Of a DNA stretch of 64,000 nt, positions 16,920-34,782 are shown piece after piece. The position numbers were made by a program, and so were the translations under genes. The notes below the pieces were generated by a model. It did not search any database. It worked only from the letters and a program-made list of their open reading frames with translations, and had not been told where the DNA came from. This DNA is from Mesonia profundi (GTDB lineage Bacteria; Bacteroidota; Bacteroidia; Flavobacteriales; Flavobacteriaceae): contig NZ_JAVHUL010000002.1 in the NCBI RefSeq assembly GCF_031085155.1, forward strand, positions 62,001-126,000. The letters are read 5' to 3'. The stretch's first letter is position 1. Every line of letters begins with the position of its first letter.

Positions 16920-17561
16920 ATGATAATTCTACGCGACCAAGAACCTTTTCCTCCAATCCATAAAACGGATGAAGGCGGATTATTAGCCATGGGCGGAAGT
17001 TTAACACAGCAACGTTTATGGGAAGCCTACAATTCGGGAATATTTCCTTGGTATGAAGAAGAGGGGCCTGTGTTGTGGTGGAGTCCAGATCCAAGAATGG
17101 TACTTTTTCCTCAAGATCTTAAGGTTTCTAAAAGCATGAAACAACTTTTTAAAAAGCAAGCTTTTAAAGTAACCTACAATCAAAATTTTGAAGACGTTAT
17201 GAGAAACTGTGCTCAAATGTATAGAGAAGGACAAGACGGCACTTGGATCACCAATGAAATGGTATTGGCTTACATCAAACTTCATCAATCGGGCCATGCG
17301 GTATCTGTTGAGGTTTGGCAAGAGAATAATTTGGTAGGCGGCTTATACGGAGTTTACCTTAAAGAGAAACAGGTTTTTTGCGGAGAAAGCATGTTTGCTA
17401 AAGTTAGTAATGCTTCCAAATATGGTTTTATTTCTTTGGTAAGAGAATTAGCCAAAGAGCAGGTGAAACTCATAGATTGCCAAGTGTATACCGCACATTT
17501 AGAAAGTTTGGGCGCTAAAGAAATAGATCGGGAAGTCTTCTTGAGTTATCTAAAAACTTAG
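16920..17561 (+). CDS. aat: Leucyl/phenylalanyl-tRNA--protein transferase
   Basis: Enzyme of 213 residues that adds Leu or Phe from aminoacyl-tRNA to the N terminus of proteins bearing basic N-terminal residues, marking them for ClpAP (N-degron pathway). Conserved Aat segments are visible: FPWYEEEGPVLWWSPDPRMVL and GLYGVYLKEKQVFCGESMF. Length is normal for the family in this phylum. It is convergent with the DUF2490 gene, which it overlaps by 4 bases. Confidence 0.95.
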   Translation: MIILRDQEPFPPIHKTDEGGLLAMGGSLTQQRLWEAYNSGIFPWYEEEGPVLWWSPDPRMVLFPQDLKVSKSMKQLFKKQAFKVTYNQNFEDVMRNCAQMYREGQDGTWITNEMVLAYIKLHQSGHAVSVEVWQENNLVGGLYGVYLKEKQVFCGESMFAKVSNASKYGFISLVRELAKEQVKLIDCQVYTAHLESLGAKEIDREVFLSYLKT

Positions 17562-18322
17562 ATAGAAATCTTTACGCCGCTAATAAGGTTTAATTCCACA
17601 TAGGGGTTGATGTTATACGCACGGTAACGATACTCTAATCCGAAGTCTAAGCGTGTATTTTTAAATAGTTCATAACTAATTTGTGTAGAAGCACGTTGCC
17701 CCAAACTTGGCTTTTCATTTTTTCCAAATTCCAAAACGGCTTCAGTGGAAGCGACCAAAGAAAGTTCTTTGGAGGTTACTTCTTCTTCTTGTAGTGGAAA
17801 TTCCATTTTAAAACGATAGCGCGTTCTAAAGGAGGTACGCTCTCTAAACCGTTGCGAAAATCGAACCCGATGATCTATTTTATTACGGTTCACTTTTTTA
17901 GCATACGCATATTGTTGTACAAGTCGGGTTTCATCTTGTTTCCCTGTAAAGGTTTCTTTAAAACGGTACCGAATTCCTGCACTTATTTTGCCATGAGTAC
18001 CAATTTTTCTATTGGTGTAGTGACTTAACTCTAGGTATTCGCCTTCAACATTGAACTTATTATTAAAGCCACTTTCTTTTTTAAAATCGGTGTAGACCAC
18101 ATTTTTATGTGATATTCCAAAGGAATAAGACCAAGGAGTGTCATTTTTAATACTCAAGGTGACTTCAGGGTTGATGTAGCCTTTAAAATTGGTTTGAGAA
18201 AAGGAAATACTAGTGATCAATAAGAACACAACGCAGGTAAAATTTCCAGAAAACGAAATGTTTAAATAGCGCTTGGTTAAGCTTCTTTTAAAAGCTTTCG
18301 TGGGCATGGTATAAAATTTCAT
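17558..18322 (-). CDS. DUF2490 family outer-membrane beta-barrel protein
   Basis: Exported protein of up to 254 residues. A hydrophobic signal segment ends near SISFSQ (about residue 44), after which alternating beta strands rich in aromatic and charged residues run to the C terminus. That pattern, with repeated R-x-R-F-x strands, is that of DUF2490 outer-membrane barrels. Its N terminus is long for a signal peptide, so a later start within the first 30 codons is possible. Function unknown. Convergent overlap of 4 bases with aat. Confidence 0.8.
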   Translation of the reverse strand: MKFYTMPTKAFKRSLTKRYLNISFSGNFTCVVFLLITSISFSQTNFKGYINPEVTLSIKNDTPWSYSFGISHKNVVYTDFKKESGFNNKFNVEGEYLELSHYTNRKIGTHGKISAGIRYRFKETFTGKQDETRLVQQYAYAKKVNRNKIDHRVRFSQRFRERTSFRTRYRFKMEFPLQEEEVTSKELSLVASTEAVLEFGKNEKPSLGQRASTQISYELFKNTRLDFGLEYRYRAYNINPYVELNLISGVKISI

Positions 18323-18491: not shown

Positions 18492-19064
18492 TTAAGAGAC
18501 TTGAACCTCTTGATGTCTAAAACAAGAAACTTCATGATCATTAACCATGCCTACCGCCTGCATATAGGCATAGATAACCGTAGGGCCCACAAATTTAAAG
18601 CCTCGTTTTTTTAAATCTTTGCTCATCTTTTCACTTAGCGGAGTCGTAGGAGGTGCGGTAGTGTAATCTTCTACTTTATTCTGTATGGCCTTGTGATTTA
18701 CATAATTCCAGATGAATTTACTGAAGCTTCCATATTCTTTTTGAATTTCTATAAAAGCTTGAGCATTACTAACTGCAGATCTTACCTTGAGTTTATTTCT
18801 TATAATGCCTGGGTTTTGAAGTAGCTCCTGGATTTTTTCTTCAGAATAGTGAGCTACTTTTTCTACCTCAAAATGATCAAAGGCTTTACGGAAGTGTTCT
18901 CGTTTTTTTAGAATGGTAATCCAACTGAGTCCTGCCTGAAAACTCTCTAGAATAAGAAACTCAAACAAGGTTTTATCATCATAAACCGGAACTCCCCATT
19001 CTAGATCGTGATATTTCTCATATAATGCATCTCCTACGCACCAAGGGCATTGTTTCTTGCTCAT
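18492..19064 (-). CDS. tag: DNA-3-methyladenine glycosylase I
   Basis: Base-excision repair glycosylase of 190 residues removing 3-methyladenine from DNA. The N-terminal CPWC...YHDLEWG segment, the ESFQAGLSWITILKKR helix and the C-terminal NDHEVSCFRH provide the usual Zn-binding Cys and His residues and the substrate pocket. Length is typical. It is monocistronic, divergent from the thioredoxin-like gene. Confidence 0.95.
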   Translation of the reverse strand: MSKKQCPWCVGDALYEKYHDLEWGVPVYDDKTLFEFLILESFQAGLSWITILKKREHFRKAFDHFEVEKVAHYSEEKIQELLQNPGIIRNKLKVRSAVSNAQAFIEIQKEYGSFSKFIWNYVNHKAIQNKVEDYTTAPPTTPLSEKMSKDLKKRGFKFVGPTVIYAYMQAVGMVNDHEVSCFRHQEVQVS

Positions 19065-19134: not shown

Positions 19135-19743
19135 ATGGATACTACAACAGTTTTAAATACAGAAATCACCGATGCGCTTCAAAAAAGCATGACTTACCAA
19201 GATTTTCTTGATAAGGTCACTACACTTCACGAGGAAGGAAAAGTAACAGGAGATACACAATCTGAAGATTTACTAAACTATACCAACCTTAATTTAAGAC
19301 GTCTTAAACGTTGGAACAAAACCTTAAAAGTGAGTGATGACGTAAAAGAGACCATTGCAAACTATTCTAAGAAAGTACATTGGATTGTGGTTGCCGAAGG
19401 TTGGTGTGGAGATGTTGCTCATATTTTACCGGTGATTCATAAAGCCGCAGAACTCAATGATAACATTAATTTACGAATCGTGTTACGCGATCAAAACGTA
19501 GCTTTTATGGATCACTTTTTAACCAACGGGGCTCGTTCTATTCCTAAATTAGTGATGGTAGATCAAGAGACTTTAGAGGTTCTTCATGTTTGGGGAGAGC
19601 GTCCTGCCCCTGCTATAAAACTGATTAAAGATTATAAAGAGGAGCATGGGATAGTAGATGAGACCGTAAAAGAAGAGCTACAGCATTGGTATAATTCAGA
19701 TAAAGGTCAAACTACCTTAAAAGAATTGACAGCTTTGTTATAG
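19135..19743 (+). CDS. Thioredoxin-like protein with WCGD motif
   Basis: Cytoplasmic protein of 202 residues with a thioredoxin fold. The active-site region reads EGWCGDVAH: only the first Cys of the usual CxxC is kept. The cis-proline motif RSIPKLVMVD follows. This matches the thioredoxin_9 family of Bacteroidota and Bacillota, which are not classical disulfide reductases; one retained Cys suggests monothiol chemistry. No signal peptide. Neighbours give no functional hint. Confidence 0.85.
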   Translation: MDTTTVLNTEITDALQKSMTYQDFLDKVTTLHEEGKVTGDTQSEDLLNYTNLNLRRLKRWNKTLKVSDDVKETIANYSKKVHWIVVAEGWCGDVAHILPVIHKAAELNDNINLRIVLRDQNVAFMDHFLTNGARSIPKLVMVDQETLEVLHVWGERPAPAIKLIKDYKEEHGIVDETVKEELQHWYNSDKGQTTLKELTALL

Positions 19744-19829: not shown

Positions 19830-20762
19830 ATGAAAAAATTTGCAATTGCGCTCCACGGGGGTGCCGGAACCCTATTAAAGGAAAATATGACGTCATCTCA
19901 AGAAAAAGCGTACAAAGAAACGCTTTCTGGGGCATTGCAAAAAGGATTTGATATTTTAGAGAAGAAGGGAAGTGCCATCAATGCGGTGCAAGAAGCTGTA
20001 ATGCATATGGAGAATTCCTCCTTATTTAATGCAGGCAAAGGCAGTGTTTTTTCTGCTAGCGGAACCCATGAAATGGAAGCTGCAATTATGGAAGGGAAAA
20101 AACGCAAAGCCGGATCGGTGGCATTACTAACGGGAATTAAAAACCCCATTGCCTTGGCTAGAGATGTGATGGAAAAAAGTCCGCATGTTTTTATGATAGG
20201 CCAAGGCGCTTTAGATTTTGCTCAATCTTTAGGATATGGTTTAGAGAAACCCGATTATTTTTATGATGAGTTAAGATACAAGCAATGGCAAGAGATTAAA
20301 GATTCTAGCAAGTTTCAATTGGATCACAGTGCAACTAAGAACTCAAAATTTGGTACGGTAGGCGCAGTAGCTTGTGATGGTTTTGGTAATCTTGCGGCGG
20401 CTACTTCTACTGGAGGAATGACCAATAAAATATCTGGCAGACTTGGAGATAGTTCAGTTCCTGGCGCGGGAAATTATGCACATAACAAAACATGCGCCGT
20501 GAGTTGTACGGGGAGCGGAGAATATTTTTTAAGAGGTGTAGTGGCTTATGATGTCGCTTGTCTTATGGAAATGAAGAACAAGCGCTTAAAAGAAGCCGCA
20601 GAAGAAGTGATTCATCATCGCATTTTAGAAATTGGCGGTGATGGTGGTCTCATAGCAGTTGATGCCCAAGGAAATATCACGTTGCCTTTTAATACAGAAG
20701 GTATGTATAGAGCATATCAAACCTCTACGGGAGAGAAATTAATCGCTATATACAAAGACTAG
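19830..20762 (+). CDS. iaaA: Isoaspartyl peptidase / plant-type L-asparaginase
   Basis: Ntn-hydrolase of 310 residues, made as a precursor that cuts itself before the catalytic Thr (Thr176 in KFGTVGAVA). N-terminal LHGGAG and the later STGGMTNK and GSGEYFLRG segments are diagnostic. There is no signal peptide, so it is cytoplasmic. These enzymes split beta-aspartyl dipeptides. The next two genes are cyanophycinase and cyanophycin synthetase; cyanophycinase releases beta-Asp-Arg, which is this enzyme's substrate, so it probably completes cyanophycin breakdown. It overlaps the convergent cyanophycinase gene by 4 bases. Confidence 0.94.
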   Translation: MKKFAIALHGGAGTLLKENMTSSQEKAYKETLSGALQKGFDILEKKGSAINAVQEAVMHMENSSLFNAGKGSVFSASGTHEMEAAIMEGKKRKAGSVALLTGIKNPIALARDVMEKSPHVFMIGQGALDFAQSLGYGLEKPDYFYDELRYKQWQEIKDSSKFQLDHSATKNSKFGTVGAVACDGFGNLAAATSTGGMTNKISGRLGDSSVPGAGNYAHNKTCAVSCTGSGEYFLRGVVAYDVACLMEMKNKRLKEAAEEVIHHRILEIGGDGGLIAVDAQGNITLPFNTEGMYRAYQTSTGEKLIAIYKD

Positions 20763-21625
20763 TTAAGTTGCTTTTTCTTTTTATCAATAGGAATAACTCG
20801 AATATTTCTTTTTTCAATATCGAATTGATAGCCATTGGCAAGTACATGAGTTTTTAAATGTGCGATAGTCATAGGGTTACCTACCTCTGTAGTAGCTTGA
20901 TTATTATAGGATAATTCACTAGCATCAAAAATCACAACCATCCCAGAACCTATAATTTCAAAGGAATTACAATTTTTAATGATCAATCCAGTGTCTTCGG
21001 CTAAACCAATGCCAATCAAATCTGTAAATCGGGCTGTCGCTTCTGCCAAACGGCCAAACCTACCGCGACGTATAAAATGAGAATCAATAATAAGATCTGG
21101 CATAAATCCTAAACCTTCTCCCATACGAACGGCTCCCTTATTAAAAAACTCTTTTCCACCCCCGCCAGTAATCATTTCTTTAGACATACACATGGCTCCG
21201 GCGCTGGTACCTGCAATAACAAAATTGCCCTCTTGATATTTTCTCATTAAAATTTTGTGAATACTACTTCCGCCAATTTTATGCGTTATTTTGGATTGAC
21301 TTCCACCAGAAAATAAAACACAATCAGCATCTTCTACCAATTCAATATTTTCTGTACTTTCAGCATCATCTCGATTTCGGATATCAGCAATACTAATATT
21401 TTCACAACTTAAGGTTTTAAAACTGTCAATATAATTGTCTGCGACCTCAAGGGGTATTCTTGAGGCGGTAGGAATAATAACAATATTAGCTTGAGTACCT
21501 CCACTTTCTTTCACGAGTCTAGCTAAAACGCTGGTCTCTATAAATTCTAAATGATCTCGTTCATTCGTGTCTATTCCTTTGTCTTCATTCCCCCCTATAA
21601 GAATCAAAATCCCTTTTGCACTCAT
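20759..21625 (-). CDS. cphB: Cyanophycinase
   Basis: Serine exopeptidase of family S51, 288 residues, which cuts the storage polymer cyanophycin (poly-Asp with Arg side chains) into beta-Asp-Arg dipeptides. The nucleophile is Ser141 in GTSAGAM; LIGGNEDKG at the N terminus and DSHFIRRGRFGRL are typical. It is cytoplasmic. It is divergent from cphA, with 95 bases between the starts, and convergent with iaaA. Synthesis and breakdown genes are thus on opposite strands and can be controlled separately. Confidence 0.93.
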   Translation of the reverse strand: MSAKGILILIGGNEDKGIDTNERDHLEFIETSVLARLVKESGGTQANIVIIPTASRIPLEVADNYIDSFKTLSCENISIADIRNRDDAESTENIELVEDADCVLFSGGSQSKITHKIGGSSIHKILMRKYQEGNFVIAGTSAGAMCMSKEMITGGGGKEFFNKGAVRMGEGLGFMPDLIIDSHFIRRGRFGRLAEATARFTDLIGIGLAEDTGLIIKNCNSFEIIGSGMVVIFDASELSYNNQATTEVGNPMTIAHLKTHVLANGYQFDIEKRNIRVIPIDKKKKQLN

Positions 21626-21720: not shown

Positions 21721-24348
21721 ATGAGAATTAAAGAGATAAATGTGCTGCGCGGCCCCAATTATTGGTCTATAAGACGACATAAGTTAATTGTCATGGTATT
21801 GGATTTGGAAGAAATGGAAGAAAGACCCTCTCATATCATAGAGGGGTTTTATGAACGATTAAAAAAATTACTTCCAAGCCTTAACAGTCATAGATGTTCT
21901 GAAGGTCATGAAGGAGGTTTTTTTGAACGCGTAAAAGATGGAACTTGAATGGGGCACATCATTGAGCATATTGCTTTAGAGATTCAAACTTTGGCAGGAA
22001 TGGAAACGGGCTTCGGAAGAACTCGCGGGTATGGAGAAGATGGAGTTTATCAAGTAGTATTTTCTTATCTAGAGGAGAACGCAGGTAAGTTTGCGGCAGA
22101 ATCTGCTGTGGCGATTTGTGAAGCTTTAATAGCCAATAAACCGTATGATTTGGAGGCAGATATTCAAGAGATGCGAGAAATTAGAGATAATTATCGTCTA
22201 GGACCAAGTACGGGCGCTATTATTTTTGAAGCGGAAGAAAGAGGAATTCCTTGGATGCGTCTCAATGAACATTCGCTATGTCAATTAGGCTATGGCTCTA
22301 AGCAAAAGCGCATACAGGCTACCGTGACGAGCGAAACCAGTTGCATAGGTGTAGAATTAGCGGGAGACAAGAAGGAGACGAAATACATGCTGAAAAAAGC
22401 TGGTATTAAAGTTCCAGAAGGTTTAATTGTTTCCAAAATAGAAGATCTCGAAAGAATAGGAGAAGAACTTGGTTATCCCGTAGTAGTAAAACCTATTGAT
22501 GGAAATCATGGAAGAGGAATAAGTATAGGTGTAAATTCTTTGGCAGAAGTAAAAAAGGCTTTTGAAGAAGCCAAAAAAGTATCTTATCAGGTTATTATTG
22601 AGAGACAAATTTTTGGTTTTGATTATCGCTTATTGGCTATTAGCAATCAGTTTGTAGCGGCTTCTAAAAGAACTCCGGCGCACGTGGTAGGAGATGGGAA
22701 ATTGACTGTAAAACAATTAATCGATCAAGAAAATAAAGATCCGCGTAGAGGTTATGGGCATGAAAATGTGCTCACGTTAATAAGCATCAACCGACTTACA
22801 AAAAGAATTATCGCCGATAGTGGTTATAGTTTGAAATCTGTATTAAAGAAAGGAGAGCTGTTGGTGTTAAAAGATACGGCAAATTTGAGTACAGGAGGAA
22901 CGGCAGAAGATGTAACCGATATGGTGCATCCAGAAAATATTAATTTAGCTGAACGCATTTCTCGAATCATTGATCTAGACATCTGCGGAATTGATTTAAT
23001 GATTGAAGATATTAGCAAGCCACTTTCCACAAGTAACGGAGGCGTAATTGAAGTAAATGCTGGTCCTGGCTTTAGAATGCATCTAGCTCCCACCGTGGGA
23101 AAAGCTAGAAATGTTGCTGCCCTAGTGGTAGATGGATTGTTTCCGCAGAAAACCGATACAGGTAAGATTCCTATCATTGCTGTAACGGGAACCAACGGTA
23201 AAACAACCACTACGCGCTTAATTGCGCACATGGCCAAAATGAACGGTTGTCGCGTGGGTTACACCACAAGCGATGGCATTTATATTCAAAACCAATTGTT
23301 GCAGGGCGGAGATTGTACGGGACCAGATAGCGCTAATTTTGTACTAAGAGATCCTGAGGTTAACTTCGCCGTTTTAGAATGTGCGCGTGGCGGTTTATTA
23401 CGCGCAGGATTAGCTTTTTCTAGCTGTGATGTGGGTATAGTGACTAATGTAAGCGAAGATCACCTTGGCTTAAAAGGAATACACAATATCAAACAGTTGG
23501 CACGAGCGAAAGCGGTTATTCCAGAGGTGGTTACTTCAGAGGGTTATGCTATTTTAAACGCCGATGATGATTTAGTTTATGCTATGCGAGAAGGACTTTC
23601 GTCGAATGTAGCTCTTTTTTCTATGGAAGAAAACAATCCAAGAATTTTGGAACTGCAAGCGGAAGGTGGAATTACTGCAGTTTATGAAAACGGATACATC
23701 ACGCTTTTTAAAGGAGGTGGAAAAATGCGTATCATCAAAGCAGAAAATGTTCCTTTAACTTTTGGCGGAAAAGCTAGTTTTATGATTCAGAATATTTTGC
23801 CAGCAGTGATTGCAGCGCACGTGCAGCATATTTCTATACAAGATATTAGGGCGGCTTTAGGAACTTTTGTTCCTTCTGCCTTGCAAACTCCTGGCCGACT
23901 CAATTTTTATCAATTTAAAAACTTTAAAGTTCTCATAGATTATGCTCATAACCGTGCAGGAATGATGGCTTTAAAGAATTTAACAGATAATATAGATGCC
24001 TCTACCAAACTGGGTATTGTAGCTCCTATTGGCGATCGAAGAGATGAAGATAATATAGAAATGGGAAAATTGGCTGCGGAAATGTTTGATGAAATAATTA
24101 TCCGTTTTGATAAAGATTTGCGAGGACAAACCGAAGATCAACTCATAAGCATTATTAAGAAGGGAATAAGTTCGGTTAAACCGGAATTAAAACCAGAAGT
24201 AATTTTTTCTGAAACGGAAGCTTTAACGCAAGCAATAAAAAATGCAAAGAAAGACGCATTAATCGTACTTTTTTGTGACGATGTTTTGGCGGCTACTCAA
24301 GTCGTAAAAGACCTAAAAAGTCAAGAAGAAAATAACGTAGATAAATGA
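21721..24348 (+). pseudogene. cphA: Cyanophycin synthetase interrupted by one in-frame UGA
   Basis: The locus encodes a full-length CphA of 875 codons but with TGA at codon 76 (21946-21948). Before it is the N-terminal domain (RGPNYWSIRRHKLIVM, ERVKDGT); directly after, in the same frame, MGHIIEHIALEIQ continues the conserved block. CphA of other bacteria has Tyr or Trp at this codon, so a TGG-to-TGA change is the simplest reading. The ATP-grasp domain (about 220-480) and the Mur-ligase-like domain with GTNGKTTTTR from residue 490 look intact. CphA adds Asp and then Arg to the polymer using ATP. Translation could restart at ATG 21949, giving 799 residues without the N domain. It may be a recent pseudogene, a sequencing error, or a leaky stop. 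Confidence 0.8.
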
Positions 24349-24389: not shown

Positions 24390-25084
24390 TCTGGTAATGT
24401 GGCGATAAAGCTTTCTAAAGTATAGGCATCATCTATATTATAATCTCCAATCTTTGTTCTTCGGAGTCCAGAAAGATGCGCGCCGCTATCTACCGCTTTT
24501 CCAAAATCATGCGCCAAACTTCTTATGTAAGTCCCTTTGCTGCAACTTACTTTAAAGTCTACTTCGGGGACATTTATCCGCGTAAGCGAAAAAGAAGATA
24601 TGCTGACTTTTCTAGGGTCTATTTTTACCTCTTCTCCTTTACGAGCATATTCATACAAGCGTTTTCCATCTTTTTTTAAGGCAGAAAAAATGGGAGGGTA
24701 TTGTTCTATTTCTCCTAAAAATTGCGGAATGGCGTTTTCTAAAATTTCTTCGGAAAGATGCTCGGTAGAAAAAGTCTCATCAATTTCGGTTTCTAGATCG
24801 TAAGAAGGCGTGGTGCTACCAAGGGTAAACGTGCCGGTATATTCTTTTTCTAAACCTTGCAATTCTTGAATGCGTTTGGTAAATTTCCCCGTGCAAATAA
24901 TGAGCAGTCCAGTCGCCAACGGATCTAAAGTGCCTGCGTGACCTACTTTTATCTTTTTGATGCCATAATTTTGCCTAATAAGCCATCGCACTTTATTTAC
25001 CAGTTGAAAGGAAGTCCATTCCAAGGGTTTGTCGAAAAGTAGAACTTGTCCGTTTTTAAAATCTTCGTCGGTCATACTAAACAC
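24377..25084 (-). CDS. truB: tRNA pseudouridine-55 synthase
   Basis: Enzyme of 235 residues that makes pseudouridine 55 in the T-loop of tRNAs. The catalytic Asp is in [16 protein letters not shown], and [17 protein letters not shown] and [15 protein letters not shown] are standard. The C-terminal PUA domain is absent, as in the short form. It overlaps uppP by 8 bases and is the last gene of the ftsX-DUF3098-uppP-truB operon. Confidence 0.95.
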
Positions 25085-25859
25085 TTAAAGGCATTACGAA
25101 ATAGTGAATAACGAAAATGGCGATTCCAATAGCAATTCGGTAATAACCAAAAACTTTAAATCCGTGTTTGGTAAGGTATCCAATAAAAGATTTTATAGCG
25201 AAAATGGCTACGATAAAGCCTATTACATTTCCAAGAATGAGTAAATTGATTTGGTTGTCACTTAGCACAAAGCCTTCTTGGTAATAATCCCATGTTTTTT
25301 TTACGGTTGCTCCAAACATGGTAGGAACCGCTAAGAAGAAAGAAAATTCTGCGGCAGTGGTTCTAGAAAGTTTCTGGCTCATTCCTCCCACAATAGAAGC
25401 GCCACTTCGGGAAACTCCTGGAATCATAGCGATACATTGGAAAAAACCAATTTTTAAAGCCGTGAGGTAAGAAATTTCTTCGTCTTCAGAGCCATTAAAC
25501 CAATCGTCTACTTTTAAGAGAATAAAACCACCAATAATAAGCGAAATAGCTACAATTAAGGGACTCTCTAAAAGCTCATCAATAAAGTCATTTAGCAATA
25601 AGCCAAGGAAGACAGCTGGAAGAAAAGCAACAAATAGTTTTTTATAAAAATCGACACTTTGTAAAAACCTTTTCCAGTATAATACCAATACGGAGAGAAT
25701 GGTACCAAATTGTATAACAATCGTAAAAAGTTTGGTGAAATCGTCGCCGGCAATGCCAAACAAAGAAGAAACAATAATCATGTGTCCTGTAGAAGAAACA
25801 GGAAGAAACTCGGTTAGACCTTCGATGATGGCCAACACAATAGCATTAAATAAATCCAT
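25077..25859 (-). CDS. uppP: Undecaprenyl-diphosphatase UppP/BacA
   Basis: Polytopic inner-membrane phosphatase of 260 residues that recycles the undecaprenyl carrier used for peptidoglycan and surface polysaccharides. Both signature regions are present: [17 protein letters not shown] near the N terminus and [16 protein letters not shown] near residue 140. It starts on the last base of the DUF3098 stop (TAATG) and overlaps truB by 8 bases, so it is translationally coupled on both sides. Confidence 0.96.
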
Positions 25860-27203: not shown

Positions 27204-30200
27204 ATGAGCTACAATTTTAACGAGATCGAAGCCAAATGGCAAAAATATTGGGAAAAAAACCAAACTTTTAAAGCCGCTAACGACAGTGAAAAACCTAAGT
27301 TTTATGGTTTAGATATGTTTCCTTATCCTTCGGGAGCTGGTTTGCACGTGGGGCATCCCTTAGGCTATATTGCAAGTGATATTGTGGCGAGATTTAAGCG
27401 GCATCAAGGCTTTAATGTATTGCATCCGCAAGGCTATGATTCTTTTGGTTTACCGGCAGAGCAGTATGCGATACAAACCGGTCAGCATCCTGCAAATACT
27501 ACCAAAGTAAACATCGAAGGTTGTTTAGATAAGCAAGGTAATATTTTAGCAGAATATGTTAATGATGATGGTAGTATAAAAAATGAAGTAGTATTATCTA
27601 AGAATAATAAAGGTTTCCCTCCTTATTCTTTTGATGATGATTATAGAGATTATGTAATAAAAGGCTACCGCAATCAATTAGATAAAATTGGTTTTTCTTT
27701 TGATTGGAGTCGGGAAGTGAGAACCAGTGATCCTAATTACTATAAATGGACGCAGTGGATTTTTATTCAGCTTTTTGAAAGTTGGTATGATAAAGAAAGT
27801 GATAAAGCCCGACCTATTTCTGATTTAATCGAGCTTTTTAATCAAGACGGGAATACGAAAGTAAACGCGGTTTGTGATGAAGGAGTTGCAAATTTTTCCG
27901 CGGAAGCGTGGCAAAACCTGAGCGACAAAGAACAGCAGGAAATTTTATTACAATACAGACTGACTTATTTAGCCGAAACCGAAGTCAACTGGTGTCCAGA
28001 ATTAGGAACTGTATTGGCGAATGACGAGATTGTAAACGGCGTGTCTGAGCGTGGTGGTTATCCCGTAGTGAGAAAGAAAATGAAACAATGGAGCATGCGT
28101 ATTTCTGCTTACGCGGAACGCTTGCTGCAAGGTTTAGAAAGTTTAGATTGGACCGAAAGTCTTAAAGAAACCCAACGCAACTGGATTGGAAAATCGGTGG
28201 GGGCAATAGTTGAATTCCCCATCCTAACCTTCCCCGAAGGGGAAGAGAAAGCACGCCCAAAATATATGACTGGCGGGAATAATTCACAGTTGCTTATTAA
28301 AAAAGCTCAGGAAAATAGAGATAAGCCTACAGAAGCTGAAGCGGCTCTTTGGTCACAGTTAAGGAATAAAAATATTGGTTATAAATTTAGGCAACAGCAC
28401 CTTATTGGAGACTTTATAGTTGATTTTGTTTGTTTGCGTAGAAAATTGGTTATCGAAGTTGATGGAGGAATTCACGATACCACCAAAGAATATGACCAGG
28501 AGAGAACCAAAATCTTAAATGAAAAAGGCTTCGACGTAATTCGTTTTAAAAATGAAGAAGTTCTAGGTAATACAGAAGCAGTTTTAGATAAAATAAGTAA
28601 AGAGTTGGAAAGTCAAGTCTTCCCCTTGGGGGAGTCCCGACGCTTCGGGATAGATGGGGATGTTCCCCCTTCGGGGGCTAGGGGGATTTCTGTCTTCACT
28701 ACCCGTCCTGACACCATTTTTGGCGTGACTTTTATGACCTTGGCGCCAGAGCATGAATTGGTTTCAAAAATCACCACCTCCGCGCAAAAAGAAGCTGTAG
28801 AAAGTTATGTGAAAGCGACAGCAAAACGCAGCGAACGTGAACGTATGGCCGATGTGAAAACCATCTCGGGTGTATTTACTGGCGCTTATGCCGAGCATCC
28901 GTTTACGAAAGAAGCGGTGCCCATTTGGATTGGAGATTATGTTTTGGCAGGTTATGGAACCGGAGCGGTGATGGCGGTACCTTGCGGAGATCAGCGGGAT
29001 TATGATTTTGCAAAACACTTTAATATCCCCATTAAAAATATTTTTAAAGATGTCGATATTTCTGAAGCAGCACACGCTGGCAAAGAGGGAACGCTGATTA
29101 ATAACTCAGATTTTTTAAATGATCTTCCTTATAAAAAAGCCCTTAAGACAGCGATTTATGAATTAGAAAAAATAGGACAAGGGGAAGGAAAAACCAATTA
29201 CCGCTTGCGCGATGCTGTATTTAGCCGCCAGCGTTATTGGGGAGAACCCTTTCCCGTATATTATGTAAACGGAATGCCACAAATGATAGACGCCGAGCAT
29301 TTGCCTATTCGTTTACCCGAAATAGAAAAATACCTACCTACCAAAGAAGGCGAGCCGCCTTTAGGTCGCGCCGAGAATTGGGCTTGGGATACGCAAAAAA
29401 ATGAAGTGGTAAGCAACGAATTGATTGATGATGCCACGGTGTTTAAATTAGAATTGAATACGATGCCAGGATGGGCAGGAAGCTCGTGGTATTTCTTCAG
29501 GTATATGGAGGATAAGAAGCTAGATGAGGTTTTCGCTTCCGCGGAAGCGATGCAGTATTGGCAGAATGTAGATTTGTATATTGGAGGAAGCGAACACGGA
29601 ACCGGGCATTTATTGTACGCTCGTTTTTGGACCAAATTTTTAAAAGACCGCGGACTTGTACCCGTAGAAGAGCCTTTTAAAAAGCTCATCAACCAAGGAA
29701 TGATTTTGGGAGAGAGTGCGCTTGTGTATAGAGTTGAAGGAAAAAGTACGTTTGTGTCTAAAGATTTGAAAGATCAATATGAGACACAAGCTATTCACGC
29801 AGATGTTTCTTTGGTCAACACTTCTAATGAATTAAATATCGAAGCTTTTAAAAATTGGCGAGAAGAGTTTAAGGATGCCGAGTTTATTACCGAAGAAAAC
29901 GGAAAATACATCGTAGGTCGTGAAGTTGAAAAAATGTCGAAATCTAAGTACAACGTGGTAAATCCAGATGATATTTGTGATGAATATGGGGCAGATACTT
30001 TACGGATGTACGAGATGTTTTTAGGTCCGTTAGAGCAAGCCAAACCTTGGAATACGGCAGGAATCACGGGAGTACACAATTTCTTAAAGAAGCTATGGAA
30101 ATTATACCATAGCGGAGAAGAGTTTTTGGTTAGCGATGAAAAAGCAAGTCCGGAGAGCTTAAAAATCCTACATAAAACCATCAAAAAAGTAACCGAAGAT

Positions 30201-30611
30201 ATTGAAGATTTTAGTTTTAATACATCAGTATCTACGTTTATGATTTGCGTAAATGAGCTGGCGGCTCAAAAGTGTAGCAGCAGAGAGGTGTTAGAACCAC
30301 TTGCGATTTTAGTTTCTCCTTATGCGCCACATATCGCCGAAGAGCTTTGGAGTTTTATGGGGCATCAAGAAAGTATTGCTACGGCAGCTTATCCTCAGTT
30401 GGAAGAGAAGTTCTTGGTAGAAAGCAACAAAACATACCCCGTTTCTTTTAATGGTAAAATGCGTTTTACCTTAGATTTATCGTTGGACTTGTCTAAAGAG
30501 GAAATTGAAAAAGCGGTAATGGCAGATGAAAGAACTCAAAAACAATTGGAGGGTAGAACGCCTAAGAAGGTGATTATTGTTCCTGGTAAGATTGTAAATA
30601 TTGTGGGGTAG
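27204..30611 (+). CDS. leuS: Leucyl-tRNA synthetase carrying an in-frame endonuclease domain
   Basis: Class I enzyme that charges tRNA-Leu, 1135 residues, against roughly 920-960 for relatives. The HIGH-type motif is [12 protein letters not shown] (about 38-49) and KMSKS is at 910-914. The CP1 editing domain, with TTRPDT and later [19 protein letters not shown], is present. Two extra segments explain the length. Residues about 105-154 are a hydrophilic insert between TKVNI and YRNQLDKIG, which are adjacent in Bacteroides LeuRS. Residues about 339-494 are a DUF559 endonuclease with GC-rich borders, placed between GAIVEF and [10 protein letters not shown], where normal enzymes have a short variable loop. 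The frame stays open through both. Since LeuRS is essential, the protein is presumably functional with the insert, unless a second leuS exists elsewhere. The insert is not an intein. Confidence 0.95.
27516..27665 (+). other. First in-frame insert in leuS, unknown origin
   Basis: About 50 codons (residues 105-154) separate two blocks that are contiguous in Bacteroides LeuRS (KANIDRYREQLDKIG from memory). The segment is acidic and Asn/Gly-rich with many tyrosines near its end, and has no palindromes or cysteine motif. It could be a lineage-specific loop rather than a mobile insert. Confidence 0.6.
28213..28245 (+). repeat. Left terminal repeat of the leuS element
   Basis: Contains CCCCATCCTAACC followed by a hairpin CTTCCCC-GAA-GGGGAAG (28229-28245). 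The same order, a CTA core and then a CCCCGAAGGGG hairpin, is found in reverse complement at the right end. It is translated as part of LeuRS. Confidence 0.7.
28618..28690 (-). repeat. Right terminal repeat of the leuS element
   Basis: Three GC-rich hairpins follow one another: CCCC-TT-GGGG (28622-28631), TCCCGA-CGCT-TCGGGA (28635-28650) and CCCCC-TTC-GGGGG (28665-28677), then CTAGGGGGATT. Read on the minus strand the outer part is AATCCCCCTAGCCCCCGAAG, matching the left end in inverted orientation. Confidence 0.7.
29533..29550. repeat. 18-base perfect palindrome TCGCTTCCGCGGAAGCGA
   Basis: The sequence is its own reverse complement and lies inside the leuS coding region. Partial copies are at 27896-27908 (TTCCGCGGAAGCG) and 58541-58555 (TTTCGCTTCCGCGGA). 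This is unexpected by chance in AT-rich DNA. Confidence 0.7.
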
Positions 30612-32088: not shown

Positions 32089-34782
32089 ATGAAGACTTTT
32101 ATAGAAGAAACCCTAGATCATTTACTTTCCAATCCCTCTTTCGACTTTAGTAAAACCACATTTATTTTACCGAGTAAAAGAGCGGGGAATTTTTTAAAGC
32201 AGGTGATTAAAGCTAAAGTGCATACCACTATTTTTATGCCCGAGGTTTTAAGTACCGAAGATTTTATTGCGCAGATCACTGGACTTATTCCGTTGGACAA
32301 TACGAGCAGTATTTTTAAGCTCTACCAAACCTATAAGAAGACCATAGATAAAGAGCATCAAGAGTCTTTTGATAGTTTTTACGCTTGGGCACAAACCCTA
32401 ATCTATGATTTTAATGAAATAGATCGTTACCTCATTGATGCCGATCATTTCTTTAGTTACCTCTCCAGAATTCAAGACATCAACCATTGGTCTAAGGGAG
32501 AAAATCAAACCGATTTGGTGAAAAACTACCTGTGGTTTTGGAAGCAGTTGCCGCAGTTGTATAAAAATTTCACTCAGCATATTTTAGAAGAAGGCAAAGC
32601 CTATCAAGGTTTAATGTACCGAGAAGCTTCAGAAAAAATAGGAAATTACGTAAAGCAAACGGATCAAAATTATATTTTTATAGGCTTTAATGCCCTGAAT
32701 ACTGCAGAACAGCAACTGATTCAGCATGTGTTAAAAGAAGAACGCGGAGAGATATTTTGGGATGTAGACCATGCTTTTTATCATAATCCTAACCACGAAG
32801 CTTCTTTATTTATAAGAAACTATGTAAAGAATTGGGATTACTTTAAAGAGAATCCGCTGCAGGATCTTCCTAAAAACTATGAGCAACCTAAACAAATTGA
32901 ACTTATAGGAATTCCCAAAAATGTAGGTCAGGCTAAATATATTGCTCAAATTTTAAAGGAACTACCGCCAGAAGAAATCAGTCAAACGGCCGTAGTGCTT
33001 AATGACGAAGGTTTATTGCCGGTTTTATTAAACTCTTTGCCAGAGAATGTAGAGAAAATCAACATTACGATGGGGCTTCCTTTGGGCGATACGCCGCTGG
33101 CTTCTTTGTTTGAAAGCTTATTTAAAATACAAGAACGAGAGGAAGATCAGCTTTATTTTAAATGGGTGTTGGAGGTGTTGAAACATCCTTTTGTACTACA
33201 AATTTTTTCTTCGGAAAGTGAACAACTTCAGAAGAAAATTATCGAATCTAATTTGGTGTTTATCGCTTTAGATACCATTAAAGACACCAAAAATGCTGAA
33301 TTTAATGAATTTCTAGAACTCGCTTTTCATTTGCATGCCAGTACCCAAAGTTTTATAGATGCAATGATTCAGCTGATTCAAATTTTACGAGGCAAAGAGA
33401 TGAAAGACTACGCGCTAGAGACCGAATATTTATTCCACTTTAATAAGCTTTTTGTTCAGTTAAAAAACATCTTGCAAGAGCAAAGTCCGGTAGACCATAT
33501 TAAAGTGCTTTATAAAATATATAGAGACAGTCTGAGTTCACAGTCCTTAGATTTTGCCGGTTCTCCGTTTGACGGTTTGCAATTGATGGGAATGTTAGAA
33601 ACGCGGGTAATCGATTATAAAAATGTTATCTTAACCTCGGTTAATGAAGGGGTTTTACCTGCCGGAAAGAGCAACAATTCTTTTATTCCTTACGATCTAA
33701 AGAAAGAATACGGTTTACCTACGTATAAAGAAAAAGATGCGGTGTACACCTATCACTTCTACCGATTGATGCAACGTGCCGAGAATATTCATATCTTGTA
33801 CAATACAGAGCAAGACGGACTTAATGCCGGAGAAAAGAGTAGGTTTATCACCCAGTTGGAAGTGGAAAGAAAGTTAACTTCAGCTTTTGTGAATCCTAAA
33901 GTGCCTTCTATCTCGCATCAATTAATAGAGATTGCTAAGACGCCAGAAGTAATTCAGAAATTGGAAAAACTGGCCGCATACGGCTTTTCACCTTCGGCAT
34001 TGACGACTTATATTCGGAATCCTTTAGATTTTTATAAACGTTATGTGTTAGGCATTAAAGACGAGCAGGCCGTAGAAGAAACCGTTGCCGCCAATACTTT
34101 GGGAACGATTATTCACGATAGTCTAGAACATTTATTTCTTCCTTATGTGGGGAAAGAAATCCGTAAAGAAGATATAGATCAGCTTTTTAAATTAAGTGAT
34201 CAAGAAGTCTTGACGCAGTTTAAAAACGTGTATAAAAATGCCCCCATTCATAAAGGAAAAAATTTATTGATTCACGAAGTCGCTAAACGTTATTTGTATA
34301 ATTTCTTACAGTCTGAAAAGAAAGAATTGGAGGGACATTCGGTAAAAATCATCAGTTTAGAAGCCGAAGAGAAAATAGCATTGAACATCCCTCAACTTCA
34401 GGTACTGGTTAGCATCAAAGGAAAAGTAGATCGTTTGGATTCTTTTGACGGAATTACACGAATTATAGATTATAAAACCGGGAAAGTAATGGCAAGTGAC
34501 GTTTCCATAAAAGATTGGGATTTGCTAGGTACCGACTATAAGTATAGCAAAGCTTTTCAAGTTTTGTGTTACGCTAAAATGATCTTAAAAGAAGAAGATT
34601 ATGATAAAGCTCAAGGCGGAATTATTTCGTTTAAGAATTTAAAATCGGGATTTTTAGCTTTAAAAGAAGGGAAAGAAACCTTGATTACCGCTGAAACGAT
34701 GCGTAAATTTGATGAGGTTTTAAATAATGTAATCATTGAGATTTTAAATCCTGATATTCCATTTAAAGAAAAAGAAGTATGA
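32089..34782 (+). CDS. AddB-like PD-(D/E)XK nuclease family protein
   Basis: Protein of 897 residues. The N-terminal two thirds look like a degenerate superfamily I helicase core, starting with the FILPSKRAGNFL segment and including LTSVNEGVLPAGKSNNSFIP. The C-terminal RecB-type nuclease has GKVDRLD and the IIDYKTGK catalytic motif near residues 790-800. This fits the AddB subunit type of a double-strand break repair or phage-DNA degrading nuclease. The AddA-type helicase is not next to it. It ends in ATGA, overlapping the hydrolase gene by 4 bases. Confidence 0.88.
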   Translation: MKTFIEETLDHLLSNPSFDFSKTTFILPSKRAGNFLKQVIKAKVHTTIFMPEVLSTEDFIAQITGLIPLDNTSSIFKLYQTYKKTIDKEHQESFDSFYAWAQTLIYDFNEIDRYLIDADHFFSYLSRIQDINHWSKGENQTDLVKNYLWFWKQLPQLYKNFTQHILEEGKAYQGLMYREASEKIGNYVKQTDQNYIFIGFNALNTAEQQLIQHVLKEERGEIFWDVDHAFYHNPNHEASLFIRNYVKNWDYFKENPLQDLPKNYEQPKQIELIGIPKNVGQAKYIAQILKELPPEEISQTAVVLNDEGLLPVLLNSLPENVEKINITMGLPLGDTPLASLFESLFKIQEREEDQLYFKWVLEVLKHPFVLQIFSSESEQLQKKIIESNLVFIALDTIKDTKNAEFNEFLELAFHLHASTQSFIDAMIQLIQILRGKEMKDYALETEYLFHFNKLFVQLKNILQEQSPVDHIKVLYKIYRDSLSSQSLDFAGSPFDGLQLMGMLETRVIDYKNVILTSVNEGVLPAGKSNNSFIPYDLKKEYGLPTYKEKDAVYTYHFYRLMQRAENIHILYNTEQDGLNAGEKSRFITQLEVERKLTSAFVNPKVPSISHQLIEIAKTPEVIQKLEKLAAYGFSPSALTTYIRNPLDFYKRYVLGIKDEQAVEETVAANTLGTIIHDSLEHLFLPYVGKEIRKEDIDQLFKLSDQEVLTQFKNVYKNAPIHKGKNLLIHEVAKRYLYNFLQSEKKELEGHSVKIISLEAEEKIALNIPQLQVLVSIKGKVDRLDSFDGITRIIDYKTGKVMASDVSIKDWDLLGTDYKYSKAFQVLCYAKMILKEEDYDKAQGGIISFKNLKSGFLALKEGKETLITAETMRKFDEVLNNVIIEILNPDIPFKEKEV

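Follow-up and report, generated by a model that had tools for sequence, protein, structure and literature searches.

A private in-frame TGA codon within the cyanophycin synthetase gene of Mesonia profundi

Results

A TGA codon interrupts the cphA reading frame

The stretch of DNA analysed here (64,000 nucleotides, hereafter the window) lies on contig 12 of the 76 contigs of a 3.08-Mb Mesonia profundi genome, which is 98.9% complete. The window carries a cyanophycin synthetase gene (cphA) beside two intact genes, cphB and an iaaA-like gene. The features of the locus are as follows.

19830..20762, plus strand: iaaA-like gene for an isoaspartyl aminopeptidase/asparaginase type 2, intact (PF01112, 356 bits)
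20759..21625, minus strand: cphB, cyanophycinase, intact, the divergent neighbour of cphA (TIGR02069, 233 bits; cut-off, 126.6)
21721..24348, plus strand: cphA, cyanophycin synthetase (CphA1), 875 codons and the natural TGA, interrupted once (TIGR02068)
21721..21945, plus strand: first segment of cphA, 75 codons, part of the N domain with His57, the metal ligand Cys59, Phe67 and Arg70 (PF18921 positions 2-52)
21946..21948, plus strand: in-frame TGA, codon 76; the 106 distinct relatives that were parsed have TGG (Trp) here
21949..24348, plus strand: second frame, 799 codons from an ATG (Met77), beginning with the active-site helix (His79, Glu82 and His83) and encoding the ATP-grasp and Mur-ligase domains
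24346..24348, plus strand: natural stop codon of cphA, a TGA with A as the next base; a TAG comes in frame after two sense codons

The first-pass annotation had described codon 76 as a TGA inside an otherwise intact frame, and this was borne out. The residues ...ERVKDGT before the stop codon and MGHIIEHIALEIQ... after it are encoded in the same frame. In a profile search of the genome, the TIGR02068 match (1215.9 bits; cut-off, 850 bits) runs through the TGA from position 1 to position 861 of 862 and contains exactly one stop, so that the gene lacks the uninterrupted frame of that family. The 799-residue part alone still scores 1103.5 bits, above the cut-off. No other locus in the genome exceeds the cut-off, and thus no second, intact cphA was found there. 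The PF18921 domain spans the stop codon, with positions 2-52 upstream and positions 54-114 downstream; a single N-terminal domain therefore lies on both sides.

Five pairs of open stretches in the same frame and parted by one stop codon were found in the window, and cphA is the only one in which both members belong to a single interrupted family. In the other four pairs, two genes lie next to each other or a gene is flanked by an open stretch: lpxB adjoins a 99-residue frame that matches no family, surE and a LysM protein gene are each flanked by an open stretch, and a carboxy-terminal protease gene adjoins a permease gene.

Codon 76 is TGG in the relatives

Is the stop codon kept in related cphA genes? 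Codon 76 is TGG in all of the 84 cphA loci read (88 loci, four of which lie on the other strand and were left out). It is also TGG in 106 of 106 distinct relatives from the family of Mesonia profundi and nearby Bacteroidota, which were kept from 117 loci after 11 had been dropped as identical to a kept row or unparsable; none of the 106 has a stop codon at this position. Among 397 genomes of the family, 80 carry cphA, and a stop inside the gene was found in one of them, namely the window's own genome. The presence of a TGA at codon 76 is more than a matter of chance. Tyr or Trp had been expected at this position, which holds for the relatives (Trp) and for the solved structure 7lg5 (Tyr) but not for the structure 7wac, which has Leu. 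The proposed one-base origin from TGG agrees with every relative parsed: judged from these sequences, a Trp codon became TGA by a single transition.

Six of the 80 carrier rows give partial cphA matches, and two of these, G095 and G335, were examined (the others are G395, G103, G341 and G422). Neither is a precedent for a naturally N-truncated CphA. In G095, the match stops at a contig end that runs into repetitive sequence, while in G335 the N domain is intact and an assembly gap leaves unknown residues within the gene. With two of the six partial matches examined, no split cphA was seen among the 80 family carriers. Degenerate repeats of about 20 bases were seen by eye in the short contig end of G095 (L192, 3855-4116), where the start of cphA is expected; they are probably an assembly artefact. 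Among the ten papers listed by a literature search on interrupted cyanophycin synthetase, none contains the term cyanophycin synthetase, which is a weak negative. One paper was found for Salegentibacter together with cyanophycin.

The cyanophycin genes come and go in the genus

Fourteen of the 16 genus genomes have no cphA, and cphA and cphB occur together in the same two. In one other member of the genus (G004), the iaaA/cphB/cphA block lies at the same place as in the window. In the other 14 genomes, no match to iaaA, cphB or cphA was found in the 1.5 kb beside truB; this interval holds trx and tag in 12 of them, trx with an unrelated frame in one, and tag alone in one. The window has neighbours that I take to be trx (19135-19743) and tag (18492-19064). 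On this comparison of sequences, the block comes and goes in the genus, which makes it unremarkable that one carrier should acquire a first disabling mutation. Incomplete sets of cyanophycin genes were reported for many genomes in a survey (PMC10206079). The best NCBIfam match of the iaaA-like gene is PRK10226 with 340 bits, below the cut-off of 567 for that model.

Of the CphA proteins at the 80 loci kept from named genomes, the one closest to the window's is from Salegentibacter echinorum DSM 24579 (L018), a species placed in the Flavobacteriaceae by the NCBI taxonomy. It is 78% identical to the window's CphA and its gene likewise has cphB and iaaA as neighbours, whereas its codon 76 is TGG. 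When 15 queries from 14 window genes were compared with 12.4 kb of S. echinorum DNA, only iaaA, cphB and the two parts of cphA matched. Thus, the block lies in a different neighbourhood there.

Other observations were made in passing. A gene adjoining truB (25077-25859), which is presumably uppP-like, is approximately 31-34% identical to the truB-side copies of those genus relatives that have one, while truB itself is 71-85% identical; it has therefore probably been replaced or is not an orthologue of those copies. In G009 (L206), the match to truB is reported with one TAA inside. The leuS gene (27204-30611, 1135-residue product) has an in-frame insertion at about residues 341-494, just before the editing domain, and the insertion carries a DUF559 endonuclease-like domain (PF04480, residues 366-469). 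It is absent from G004, while its five best foreign matches are leuS genes of other genera in the family, aligned straight through. Among the matches listed in family genomes, relatives of the DUF559 segment recur both within long frames (about 850 codons, and about 1040-1290 codons) and in short stand-alone frames. These sequences suggest that the DUF559 domain was inserted repeatedly into large enzymes. No paper on DUF559 with leucyl-tRNA synthetase was found in a literature search.

The stop codon divides the primer-making domain

The chain 7lg5, identified from its match and from PMC9262961 as CphA1 of Synechocystis sp. UTEX2470 (SuCphA1), is collinear with the window's protein from residue 1-2. 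The Cx19HxxEH motif, the ATP-grasp domain and the Mur-ligase domain are all encoded in the window's cphA once the stop codon is passed over, whereas SuCphA1 has a Tyr residue at position 76 and no stop. PMC9262961 describes the SuCphA1 N domain as a cryptic metallopeptidase, which generates primers by cutting cyanophycin; His79, Glu82 and His83 lie on a helix (77-92), and the third metal ligand is Cys59. Mutants of the N-domain site are described there as not greatly altered in primer-dependent activity, while primer-independent activity was lost or reduced in all except R100A.

In the window, the stop codon sits one codon ahead of the active-site helix and parts Cys59 and Arg70 from the HxxEH motif (His79/Glu82/His83). 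Cx19HxxEH on one chain marks a primer-independent CphA1; here its four residues are encoded on either side of the stop codon. Nevertheless, the residues of the N-domain site are kept (His57, Cys59, Phe67, Arg70, His79, Glu82, His83, Glu87 and Arg100), and the first four of them are identical in 106 of 106 relatives. Codon 77, directly after the stop codon, is an ATG, and this Met residue is conserved in all 106.

No decay of cphA is visible

No second lesion was found in cphA: the match is collinear and contains one stop only. In comparison with S. echinorum, dN is 0.146 and dS is about 2.1 (saturated), giving a dN/dS of about 0.07. Two less diverged pairs of relatives gave lower values (0.014 and 0.039), and a mild relaxation of constraint across the clade, not specific to the window's cphA, is possible on these values. 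At sites where two outgroups agree, 39 lineage-specific residue changes were found here and 39 in the sister. Identity to S. echinorum is 80% for cphA before the stop codon and 78% after it, and 78% for both cphB and iaaA. Of the 273 columns invariant in the relatives, four are changed in the window's cphA, the stop included; the other three changes are V306A, A441G and T546E. The corresponding numbers in its kin are 4/277 (L016) and 8/281 (S. echinorum), and the mean over the 106 relatives is 0.48. The clade thus deviates somewhat at invariant columns, and the window's cphA does not stand out within it.

If the gene had been neutral over the whole branch, nonsense changes on the order of 100 would be expected (a rough figure, as dS is saturated), and one was observed. 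Gene decay was not found by substitution rate, for which the saturated dS makes any age estimate rough. Neither further lesions nor relaxed selection, by which a pseudogene would be recognized, were detected. This lack of visible decay means that the stop codon is young, or that it is not real and is an assembly error.

No sign of UGA recoding

From 257 first-look tRNA candidates, 150 were scored and 37 genes were found, all of which could be typed. There is a single tRNA-Trp gene, with anticodon CCA, and none of the 37 has the anticodon UCA. The tRNA-Trp sequence is identical over 74 bases in 10 of the 16 genus genomes, that of Mesonia profundi included; it is 99% identical in four, 81% identical in one, and one has no full-length match. 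G004 has an intact cphA together with a tRNA-Trp identical to that of the window's genome. In the profile search, RF2 is present above its cut-off, while the best genome match to SelB reaches 191 bits against a cut-off of 242 and is, by inference, elongation factor Tu.

In the window, TGA terminates 5 of the 51 stop-to-stop frames of at least 150 codons, among them cphA's own. Not all five are likely to be genes, as at least one lies antisense to leuS. The use of the standard code had been deduced from ATGA overlaps at 34779 and 44498; both are real, and the TGAs there end open frames of 898 and 256 codons. The natural end of cphA and the stop at codon 76 share the same TGA-A context. Neither a dedicated factor nor, among the 37 tRNA genes found, a tRNA for Sec or Trp recoding was detected. 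Since tRNA-Trp is ordinary, RF2 is present, SelB is below its cut-off, and TGA ends other genes, there is no sign of a reassigned or programmed UGA, and a reassigned or suppressed UGA was rejected.

Discussion

It is probable that the TGA is a recent, real nonsense mutation of TGG in a cphA gene that was functional until lately, and that the allele is null or weak. Most ribosomes would be expected to terminate via RF2 after 75 residues, leaving little or no intact CphA. The strain would therefore probably make little or no cyanophycin, while keeping cphB and iaaA for degradation. Among the outcomes listed in the first-pass annotation, a fresh pseudogene is the best supported, as the gene carries no further lesion and has not evolved faster than in the sister lineage, although the loss of function is putative. 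The intact remainder of cphA is equally expected from a sequencing error or from an allele still in use.

The main rival is a sequencing or assembly error, in which case the organism would really have TGG and an ordinary cphA. An error would fit the single-base difference in a 76-contig draft, the otherwise intact and constrained state of the gene, and the absence of the stop codon from all relatives. The change is a substitution, however, and not a homopolymer indel, and 11 of 13 neighbouring genes each align with G004 in one unbroken piece that covers 96% or more of the gene. The exceptions are the gene at 17558-18322, which is matched from residue 42, and leuS, which is matched in two pieces around its insertion. 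Judged indirectly from these alignments, the local assembly looks sound. I consider an error unlikely.

Less likely still is a leaky allele, with tRNA-Trp misreading UGA often enough to give a useful amount of full-length CphA, perhaps more in the cold. In E. coli reporters, UGA is the leakiest stop codon and its misreading inserts mainly Trp, which is the ancestral residue at codon 76; mean readthrough of the TGA reporters is 5.6-7.2% at 18 °C but just 0.2-1.1% at 25-42 °C, while hot-spot sites are far leakier than the mean (PMC11126739). The suggestion that the A after the stop codon favours leakage is only partly backed by the same source: T at +4 favours termination and G favours readthrough, and older work cited there has T and C favouring termination, but A is not singled out as leaky in the available part of that report. 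Nothing found here specifically supports a leaky full-length product, as tRNA-Trp is ordinary and unchanged in sequence, RF2 is present, and the natural stop of cphA is also TGA-A. If the nonsense allele is real, ordinary misreading by tRNA-Trp could still restore the ancestral Trp in trace amounts of full-length enzyme.

The adjoining ATG offers another route. Some 799-residue product could arise by reinitiation there, and such a restart at 21949, also raised in the first-pass annotation, is physically plausible. The product would keep both synthetic domains, but Cys59 and half of the N domain would be missing; at best, it would be weakly active and have no primer-making site of its own. In E. 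coli and Haloferax, ribosomes can reinitiate across very short distances; at +2 nt, three native E. coli gene pairs still did so, losing 5, 20 and 70% (PMC10666635). The start context of ATG77 is mixed for the phylum: of the four positions at which A favours initiation in Flavobacterium johnsoniae (PMC6847099), two carry A (-6 and -13), while -3 carries T and -12 carries G. The T at -3 is no bar; it is found in 33% of the 43 first-ATG frames in the window. Readthrough and reinitiation, by analogy with these systems, could each soften the loss of cphA.

It is very improbable that the TGA-ATG is a coupled stop-start from which chains of 75 and 799 residues reassemble, or which leaves a primer-dependent CphA. 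The intergenic distance of zero, the universal conservation of ATG77 in the relatives, and the largely retained primer-dependent activity of the N-domain site mutants would suit such an arrangement. On the other hand, positions -3 and -12 have T and G in place of the favoured A, a different-frame ATG lies 11 bases upstream of ATG77, one domain is split by the stop codon so that Cys59 is on the other side from His79/His83, and no split cphA was seen among the relatives, with two of six partial matches examined. If it were true, a synthetase with three sites would have become a two-cistron enzyme by one base change, its primer making separated from polymerisation.

The preferred reading, a private nonsense mutation, resembles young nonsense-interrupted genes of the kind known from bacteria, with one stop codon in a conserved frame and a gene of patchy distribution in the genus. 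It differs from them in that the window's cphA has no second lesion and in that the next codon happens to be ATG. Since cphA and cphB are present in just two of the 16 genus genomes, their loss in the genus is unremarkable. There is also a caution in this case: a lone in-frame UGA at a Trp codon, with tRNA-Trp, RF2 and the relatives unchanged, points to a private nonsense allele or an error and not to recoding. The kind of lesion is ordinary, while its position within the primer-making domain would make the strain a small natural experiment. If the allele is real, the strain would be a natural test of nitrogen storage by a CphA1 that lacks the first half of its N domain or is made by leakage alone, and of the loss of cyanophycin synthesis while the degradation genes stay.
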